This document shows, one piece after another, positions 6,004 to 38,912 of a stretch of DNA of 64,000 nucleotides; the first letter of the stretch is position 1, and every line of letters starts with the position of its first letter. Where the stretch lies: contig CALSUG010000005.1 of NCBI GenBank assembly GCA_943789475.1, positions 331,470 to 395,469 of the forward strand, written 5' to 3'. A model generated the notes under the pieces. That model saw only the letters and a program-made list of their open reading frames with translations, was not told the DNA's origin and did no database searches. Position numbers and translations under genes: made by a program. The DNA comes from an uncultured Alphaproteobacteria bacterium (GTDB lineage Bacteria; Pseudomonadota; Alphaproteobacteria; Micavibrionales; UBA1664).

Positions 6004-6733
6004 GTCTAGCGGCATTAGTCATATAATAATCGGCCATACCGTGACTTGCCCCAAACCCTAATCTATTACCTTCTAAGAACTGCGCTATTTGTTTTTTTGT
6101 GTCGTGTACTTCAAATCCAAATGCATTTGGGCACTTGTCTTGTATAGGCAATCTCAACCCATTTTCGTTATGGTGGAAAAGTGCCGCGCCCATATATTGA
6201 GTAAAAATTTCAAATAATAAATCACCGTGTAGTGTACTTTCAAAACCGTCTATTGTTTTTTGAGATTCAGCATGAGGTCTGATTAAATCATCTCCCAATA
6301 AGTGATCTCTGAGTACTCTGTAATCATAGCACAAGGTGTTTAAATAGGTGTGCGCGTCCAAATCGGATATGCCTTTTGTCTTCATCCAATCTTTTTTTGC
6401 GTGTTTTAGAAAATTTGCCTTTGGGTGTATATCTGCTATCAAAGGATCCCGTTCGCCATCCGGACGGCGGTGTGTAATTAATCCTGTTCTTTTTCGCGGA
6501 TATGCCGCGTGATAGTTATTAAAAATATCATGTAATATTTGACTTGCGGCGTGAACGTTATTCAACACTGCCAAATGATGTGCGCCATGAAAAAAAGAAA
6601 CGATTGCCTCGCTACTTAATATACTGGCTATTTGAAATTTATCATATTGATCAACATCGTATCTCATTGCATGATTTTGTAACATTGATGCGTTAGAATA
6701 TGCAAATATAAAATATGTGCGTGTTTCGAGCAT
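5948..6733 (-). CDS. hypothetical His-rich cytoplasmic protein
   Basis: No family recognised. The 261 residues show no signal peptide or membrane helix and are unusually rich in His, Asp and Tyr, with clusters such as 'FFHGAHHLAVL', 'HRRPDGERDP' and 'GASHGMADYYMTN'. Those could hold metal or be catalytic, but no known signature fits. The start is uncertain: no convincing ribosome-binding site precedes the ATG at 6733, and further in-frame ATGs occur at residues 17 and 23. The last 19 codons or so run antisense to the end of mutS. It is a lone gene between mutS and rimO, with a copy of the 84-bp inverted-repeat element just upstream, which suggests an accessory gene. Confidence 0.7.
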   Translation of the reverse strand: MLETRTYFIFAYSNASMLQNHAMRYDVDQYDKFQIASILSSEAIVSFFHGAHHLAVLNNVHAASQILHDIFNNYHAAYPRKRTGLITHRRPDGERDPLIADIHPKANFLKHAKKDWMKTKGISDLDAHTYLNTLCYDYRVLRDHLLGDDLIRPHAESQKTIDGFESTLHGDLLFEIFTQYMGAALFHHNENGLRLPIQDKCPNAFGFEVHDTKKQIAQFLEGNRLGFGASHGMADYYMTNAARPILERSSIDKSNPVPRAG

Positions 6734-6783
6734 TTTAAGTTATAATCATTCTATCAACGCTACAAATAGGTTGATTGCTAAAA

Positions 6784-6867
6784 ACAAAAAAGCTAAGTCG
6801 TTTAAGTCTGAATGAGTAATATCAATAAGTTAGATGTCTCTATTTAAACTTAACCGACTTAAATAAG
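6784..6867. repeat. 84-bp inverted-repeat element, copy 1
   Basis: The 26 bases starting AACAAAAAAGCTAAGTCG and the 25 bases ending CCGACTTAAATAA are identical to the reverse complement of 38604-38687. Between them lie one mismatch, GAAT in both copies, and a 28-base core of the same length but mostly different sequence. The arms are imperfect inverted repeats (TAAGTCG-N-TTAAGT on each side), so a single strand can fold into a hairpin of about 20 bp. It lies in the 186-base gap between the divergent genes at 6733 and 6920. See copy 2. Confidence 0.85.
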
Positions 6868-35257: not shown

Positions 35258-35428
35258 AAGTTGGCTGCGAACGCCGTGGTATTCGTTATCGTCATCTGGC
35301 CCTATCAAGATAGGTGGGCGCCGTATGTTCAATATTCGCGGCAAAACACGTTCTTTGAACAGGGATAGCTCCCGAGATGTGATTATCGGCCCGAGAGATT
35401 AAAGTTACTCACGAACGCCGCAGCCGAC
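35258..35428 (-). ncRNA. ssrS: 6S RNA
   Basis: Regulatory RNA that mimics an open promoter and sequesters housekeeping RNA polymerase. On this strand the 5' end GTCGGCTGCGG (from about 35427) can pair with the 3' end CGCAGCCAAC (near 35260), closing a long rod. The middle contains the unpaired-bubble region around CTGTTCAAAGAACG, and the outer helices show repeated complementary blocks such as CCACCTATC / GATAGG. Context agrees: zapA upstream and 5-formyl-THF cyclo-ligase downstream is the classic alpha- and gammaproteobacterial position. Length about 170 bases; exact ends are estimated. Confidence 0.87.
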
Positions 35429-35432
35429 AATG

Positions 35433-38603: not shown

Positions 38604-38687
38604 TTATTTAAGTCGGTTAAGTTTAAATGATGGGTATTAACCCCTTGTTTTTATTGATTCCGACTTAAACGACTTAGCTTTTTTGTT
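38604..38687. repeat. 84-bp inverted-repeat element, copy 2
   Basis: Reverse-complement copy of 6784-6867: outer 25 and 26 bases are identical, the 28-base core has equal length but only about 13 matching bases. The arms pair at about 16 of 21 positions, and on the plus strand the hairpin is followed by TTTTTTG, so this copy could end tkt transcription. Copy 1 has no gene it could terminate in that direction, so terminator use may be secondary to a mobile-repeat or binding-site origin. Confidence 0.85.
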
Positions 38688-38770
38688 CTTTGAGCCTTAG
38701 GAATAATGAAGGCGCACCTATGGCATTGATAAAATCATTATATCTCAAAACTATCGGTTCATAGTGAAAA

Positions 38771-38908
38771 CTATTTAGGCTTTGGCTGGCTACTTGTATC
38801 GCGAATAGGAGCACCCGTAGCGATATATGATGGCCTCTCACTTTTAGGTAATCTTAGCCACGCATCCATAGCGGATGTTTCTGTATCCTTTGGTGTATTT
38901 TTACTCAT
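38771..38908 (-). CDS. 45-residue hypothetical protein
   Basis: Short frame from ATG (38908-38906) to TAG (38773-38771). The product begins MSKNTPKDTETSAMDAWLRL and ends 'DTSSQPKPK': hydrophilic, no signal peptide, with a central 'LPKSERPSYIATGAP'. GGGAAG lies about 9 bases upstream, a good ribosome site. It is the only coding candidate in the 391-base gap between tkt and gap. Its upstream region overlaps the putative gap promoter on the other strand. Function unknown; homology would be needed to confirm it. Confidence 0.5.
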   Translation of the reverse strand: MSKNTPKDTETSAMDAWLRLPKSERPSYIATGAPIRDTSSQPKPK

Positions 38909-38912
38909 TTGA

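Follow-up and report, generated by a model that had tools for sequence, protein, structure and literature searches.

A dispersed inverted-repeat family with a putative IHF site in a genus of Micavibrionales, probably related to a toxinless antitoxin-like unit

Introduction

The RIB/RIP sequences of Escherichia coli, which are BIMEs with an IHF site, consist of inverted repeats placed round that site and occur at the 3′ ends of transcription units. The Correia repeat enclosed elements (CREE, also NEMIS) of Neisseria are inverted-repeat elements of ~150 bp that contain an IHF site, act as promoters and give a foldable transcript; their terminal repeats measure 26 bp, the target is duplicated, and promoters are created at the element ends (PMC2649163). 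A third precedent is QMITE1 of Coxiella burnetii, a MITE of ~400 bp with 21-bp terminal repeats and direct repeats, a conserved IHF consensus (quoted as WATCAANNNNTTR) and transcribed copies that constitute sRNA loci (PMC5896051). RIB/RIP were the subject of a paper by Boccard and Prentki (1993), cited by title in PMC3733652. For Micavibrio aeruginosavorus ARL-13, a genome almost free of repeats and with no mobile elements has been described (PMC3189940).

The family analysed here has two copies in a window of 64,000 nucleotides (the whole stretch of DNA under study), and resembles CREE in being a dispersed, presumed mobile inverted-repeat element of ~150 bp with an IHF-consensus site, a promoter-like region and a foldable strand. 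It differs from CREE in having no duplication, in having tandem-unit arms confined to the 3′ half, in an internal palindromic promoter reading into the hairpin, and in longer versions that carry a Phd-like gene; nor was any relationship to CREE seen in the sequence. With RIB/RIP it shares inverted repeats flanking an IHF-consensus site and placement at gene ends. It departs from them in that REP palindromes do not make up its arms, the genus yielded no RAYT/Y1 transposase, and it includes a promoter and gene-bearing forms. Like QMITE1 it is a MITE-type repeat with a conserved IHF consensus, but it is unrelated in sequence to that longer element with its terminal and direct repeats.

Results

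Two copies in the window

The first-pass annotation had recorded an 84-nt element present twice in opposite orientations, and this was confirmed, with copy A at 6783–6866 (+) and copy B at 38604–38687 (−); the latter coordinates had been given correctly, whereas copy A had been placed at 6784–6867, one base out of register. Arm identity between the copies over 26 and 25 nt was likewise as described, as was the relationship of the arms as imperfect inverted repeats of each other (15/17 and 14/17 positions pair in the two window copies), but the intervening centre, previously taken to be 28 nt long, proved to be 33 nt (26 + 33 + 25 = 84). RNA-fold z-scores of the single strands were −6.1 and −4.2. 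The 84-nt finding covers only the 3′ half of the element, which reaches ~70 bp further upstream into a promoter-like region: in 13 own-genome copies, conservation begins ~33 bp 5′ of a TATAAT hexamer and ends ~3 bp past ACTTAA.

On the same alignment (n = 13 copies), the whole of copy A, comprising promoter-like region, linker and IHF-cored inverted repeat, occupies 6709–6864 (+), its BLAST match in the own genome (G000) being C5:338255–338344. The −10-like TATAAT at 6741–6746 (+) lies at a fixed distance (~50–55 bp) 5′ of the hairpin, and congeners carry TTGAC-17-TATAAT at the equivalent position. There follows a linker (6747–6791, +), nearly fixed in length, variable in sequence and A-rich at its 3′ end, and then the left arm (6794–6810, +), in which the tandem units TAAGTCG and TAAGTCT recur with a 9-bp period and which forms its 15/17 pairs with the inverted tandem units of the right arm (6845–6861, +). 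Between the arms lie the IHF consensus site TATCAATAAGTTA (6820–6832, +), an exact match to WATCAANNNNTTR lying in invariant alignment columns, and a hypervariable 8-nt spacer of constant length (6834–6841, +).

Copy B (38606–38775, −; BLAST match G000:C5:370067–370153, minus strand) lies between the transketolase stop (38597) and the GAPDH gene, and its end falls 8 bp past that stop. Its −10-like TATAAT is at 38737–38742 (−), its left arm TAAGTCGTTTAAGTCGG at 38660–38676 (−), its IHF-like site AAACAAGGGGTTA, with one mismatch to the consensus, at 38638–38650 (−), its hypervariable 8-nt spacer TACCCATC at 38629–38636 (−), and its right arm at 38609–38625 (−), starting on the + strand 12 bases past the transketolase stop. 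On the + strand of the window, a T tract comes directly after the hairpin, at 38680–38684. The centre of copy B is an outlier among the 34 copies compared. An Rfam search of the window matched no family to the repeat; the sole match at gathering level was 6S RNA (SsrS) at 35258–35429 (−).

Family size and distribution

The possibility that these were the only two copies, arisen by chance duplication, was dispelled by a whole-genome search. BLAST with copy A recovered 15 gapless copies (E 1e-41 to 5e-7) from the own genome (1.97 Mb, nine contigs), spread over eight of the nine contigs, and a covariance model (R1) built from 19 sequences of three species returned the identical 15 (E 2e-15 to 2e-5). 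Two more divergent relatives were found in this genome, a full unit at C5:72094 and a relic at C2:71992. Decayed or rearranged forms are represented by L015 (G000 C1:131941–132005) and L034 (G000 C2:71992), one of which has a perfect ACGACTTAATTAAGTCGT palindrome and the other direct rather than inverted units.

Among congeners, ~14 copies were present in an Alphaproteobacteria MAG (G001, JAUHXB01) and eight in an uncultured Micavibrio sp. (G002, CAJXOI01); G003 retained a single relic copy, and none was detected in G004 (66% complete). Nothing outside the genus matched convincingly when the order (142 genomes) and the class (385 genomes) were searched, and IMG/VR contained neither a DNA nor a protein match to the family. 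Two candidate matches in genomes of another taxonomic family of the order, L108 (G022) and L110 (G053), were set aside; they gave E values of 0.04–0.1 per genome over 142 genomes, which is chance level, although L108 does have tandem GGGCCC arms; L053, L054 and L057 were discarded, the match in each being confined to the AT-rich core region. Judged by sequence matches, the family is restricted to the genus.

Arms, covariation and the central site

The 75-nt core aligns without gaps across all 19 model sequences, and each arm consists of two tandem units with a 9-bp period. The units differ between genomes, being TAAGTCG-N2-TAAGTCG in G000, (T/A)(T/A)AGTC(T/G) in G001 and GT(G/A)GT(C/T) in G002. 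Among the same 19 sequences, 13 of the 20 stem pairs show changes on both sides, the covariation score is reached by none of 500 shuffles, and slid-pairing controls are far lower; one stem position was unpaired in 17/19. The pattern originally reported, of arms kept while the centre drifts at constant length, holds for the window pair but is reversed across species, where the consensus arms of G000 and G002 are 35% identical, close to unrelated sequence, and their IHF cores 86% identical. Between species the units have changed jointly in both arms, which suggests that a partner protein has altered as well or, as the simpler explanation, that every genome has amplified an arm variant of its own. 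The pairing of tandem units, inverted around a presumed bend, suggests a protein that would read the arms in pairs.

The best conserved motif across the 34 copies is the IHF-consensus site in the centre, WATCAANNNNTTR being exact in 31 and having one mismatch in three, copy B among them; invariant and degenerate core columns together reproduce the published consensus. The own genome encodes IHF-alpha and IHF-beta, both above curated cut-offs, and HU. IHF probably binds at the repeat centre, and the placement of its consensus between two inverted repeats is that of an IHF-site BIME (RIB/RIP-like). The dispersed copies and the IHF-consensus match between arms agree with the earlier proposal of a spaced protein-binding site in an interspersed family of REP or MITE-like kind.

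Promoter and linker

A typical copy of ~140–160 bp consists of a promoter, a linker of ~45–55 nt and the 75-nt inverted repeat, with TATAAT ~50–55 bp before the hairpin in most copies. Unit length hardly varies within a genome. With the start placed ~33 bp 5′ of TATAAT, its mode in G000 is 159 bp; measured from TTGAC, it is 151 bp in G001 and 139–141 bp in G002. All 20 promoters from G001, G002 and the own full units have a TTGAC-like box 17 bp from a TATAAT-like box, and in these a dyad, ATAGGA-N5-TCCTAT, overlaps the −10 (mean score 5.75, against 5.45 for the largest of 300 shuffles). Solo copies of G000, i.e. those with no gene, keep TATAAT and have neither palindrome nor TTGACA box; the missing TTGACA box is why the −10 of copy A is absent from a generic promoter scan, in which neither window copy was listed. 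As read from these boxes, the promoter would be expected to direct transcription from the element.

Among the few independent events represented by the solo copies of G000, G001 and G002, distances from TATAAT to the hairpin are mainly ~44, 51–55 and 64 bp. These steps of roughly a helical turn would fit a promoter-bound protein touching bent arms. A covarying hairpin in the linker was seen in several copies and missing in others, and was rejected as a general feature.

Full units and the mini protein

Copies with no promoter immediately before the hairpin mostly show the order promoter, mini ORF, hairpin, the promoter lying farther upstream. These longer copies, of ~270 bp, carry a mini ORF of 53–79 aa which begins a few bases past the −10 and is leaderless or nearly so. 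It is intact once in G000 (C5:72094), three times in G001 and once in G002, and its start is damaged at G000 C8:342300 and in the C278 copy of G001. To the extent that this can be judged with dS saturated, a 36-residue block of the intact mini proteins (dN ~0.2–0.4; dS >1 or saturated) seems to be constrained by purifying selection.

The AlphaFold model of the mini protein (pLDDT 89) has a beta-alpha-alpha-beta-beta topology, and its top 12 Foldseek hits are Phd/YefM/VapB46-type antitoxin chains, including Phd on its operator (probability ~1, with E only ~0.1; VIA Z only 5–6); Pfam matches were below threshold. The mini protein is therefore predicted, on the strength of the model, to carry the Phd/YefM N-terminal DNA-binding fold, and it resembles these antitoxins also in the palindrome in its own promoter. 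Apparently unlike them, it ends directly after the fold, with no recognised toxin-binding C-terminal tail or neighbouring toxin (the neighbours of five units were inspected by eye), and is tied to a repeat family. In GTDB genomes it was found only in two congener MAGs; the order genomes gave two weak matches (G048 and G041), and IMG/VR and PLSDB none. The sole sequence match in the PDB, a stretch of homoserine O-succinyltransferase, was rejected as spurious.

Since the promoter-palindrome and hairpin are common to both forms, a solo copy resembles a unit from which the gene is missing. Support for a linker derived from the mini gene is weak: alignment of linker to mini gene was equalled by 0/200 shuffles for L093 and 10/200 for the G000 consensus, and other copies were at chance. 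At G000 C5:72094–72234 (L141) and G001 C53:2449–2571 (L143), the 3′ repeat arms occur in another order, GACTTAAACGACTTAA...TTAAGTCGTTTTAAG, around a common ACAATGNGTTR centre; these two mini-Phd units may form another subfamily, one whose IHF-like site is degenerate.

Genomic placement and mobility

Copies lie directly 3′ of stop codons and are usually oriented like the preceding gene. On an uncurated ORF-based map, the preceding gene is codirectional in 28/33 copies, and the following gene is convergent in 17/33, with 12 of these 17 genes ending no more than 8 bp from the right end of the element. In G003 the syntenic tkt-gap interval has no element where copy B lies, although a deletion could also account for this empty site. 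Synteny was anchored on a small antisense ORF between tkt and gap (window about 38770–38910, −; L156), which is apparently conserved in G003.

Strings common to the two flanks of a copy averaged 3.9, compared with 4.2 for mismatched flanks, giving no sign of target-site duplication with ends known to a few bases. The REP-associated transposase that the annotation had suggested looking for was not found, Y1 (PF01797/RAYT) being present in 0/5 genus genomes, three of them only 66–85% complete, in a scan whose positive controls rang. Membership of a REP/RAYT family is therefore unsupported, and the tandem direct units of the arms, with no homology between G000 and G002, are not REP palindromes. 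The MITE-like half of the original suggestion fares better: the element is short and non-coding, with inverted repeats and many dispersed intergenic copies, albeit with the inverted repeat internal to the 3′ half rather than terminal to the whole unit. Across the nine contigs of the own genome, arm sites with 0–1 mismatch all fall within elements or relics, the enzymes scanned for being Y1/RAYT only. The family is presumed to be mobile.

Discussion

A MITE/BIME-like family that has a parental unit of its own best accounts for the features taken together: an IHF site between inverted arms, copies dispersed in intergenic positions, presence/absence differences and long forms that bear a gene. 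We consider it probable that this is a new lineage of IHF-site MITE/BIME-like elements, kin to a toxinless antitoxin unit and doubling as gene-end hairpins.

Several features would also be expected of a multicopy small-RNA gene family, in which the promoter would produce a ~120-nt RNA with a functional hairpin, and the linker and 8-nt spacer would be target-specific: promoters of canonical spacing at a fixed distance, strong single-strand folding (z −3.7 to −6.1), compensatory stem changes and a unit length nearly constant per genome. However, the motif conserved in the loop coincides exactly with the IHF consensus on DNA, degenerate positions included, the stem position unpaired in nearly all sequences is unneeded by a pure hairpin, the hairpin has no following T tract in G000 and G002, and there is no Rfam family; we regard this account as unlikely. 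Somewhat less probable again is a gene-end module, a terminator or insulator like E. coli RIB/RIP, maintained by selection behind genes and multiplied through ordinary duplications. In its favour are the arrangement of copies behind codirectional genes, the close approach of convergent neighbours and the T tract after the stem on the strand opposite the element, as in copy B. Against it, a terminator requires no IHF site, tandem units or inward-reading promoter, and the tkt site of a congener is without the element. A terminator scan listed neither window copy, because the loop is too long for the scan pattern.

That the repeats might be sites for a nucleoid or segregation factor, spaced round the chromosome, accords with IHF being a nucleoid protein and with copies on almost every contig, but seems very improbable given that congeners differ in copy number and presence (G003 has just a relic and G004 no detected copy), that arms are almost wholly different between species, and that full units bear a gene. 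Chance duplication of a terminator has a negligible probability, for it found no support and is refuted by the copy count, which comprises 15 in the own genome and parallel families in two congeners. Two further readings were rejected: a guide-RNA or CRISPR-like arrangement of variable segment and constant scaffold, there being no associated protein and the loop being the IHF site, and an attC/integron site, the arms varying freely and R/L boxes not being conserved.

Were the family indeed composed of IHF-site MITE/BIME-like elements, the mini protein would repress its own promoter via the embedded palindrome, and the ~150-bp solo copies, including both in the window, would be non-autonomous derivatives without the gene. 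IHF would bend the centre and bring the two arms together, and the paired arms might then be acted on by some recombinase, transposase or hairpin-processing enzyme. Where a copy settled behind a stop codon, the hairpin and flanking A/T tract could also be used as an mRNA 3′ end, plausibly as an incidental result of the sites at which copies are tolerated; the repeat may have a secondary function as a terminator or small RNA. A more elaborate and speculative version, to which we attach only a low probability, is a self-contained mobile class comprising a toxinless Phd-like autorepressor, an operator-promoter and a pair of IHF-folded tandem-unit arms. The repressor-bound promoter and the bent arms would touch at fixed helical spacing to control copying, and the arm sequence would adapt, species by species, to a partner enzyme that changes rapidly.

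Each part has a precedent among RIB/RIP, Correia elements, QMITE1 and Phd; the lineage, arm design, palindromic promoter and link to a toxinless Phd-like gene appear to be undescribed in the open-licence literature searched. The linkage of the repeats to an orphan Phd-like gene suggests a possible origin of a MITE family. The family represents repeat dispersal in relatives of the predator Micavibrio aeruginosavorus. It would also add an independent example from the Alphaproteobacteria to the E. coli RIB and Neisseria Correia elements, in which an IHF site is likewise combined with inverted repeats; here the arms, unlike the IHF site, were replaced from one species to the next.
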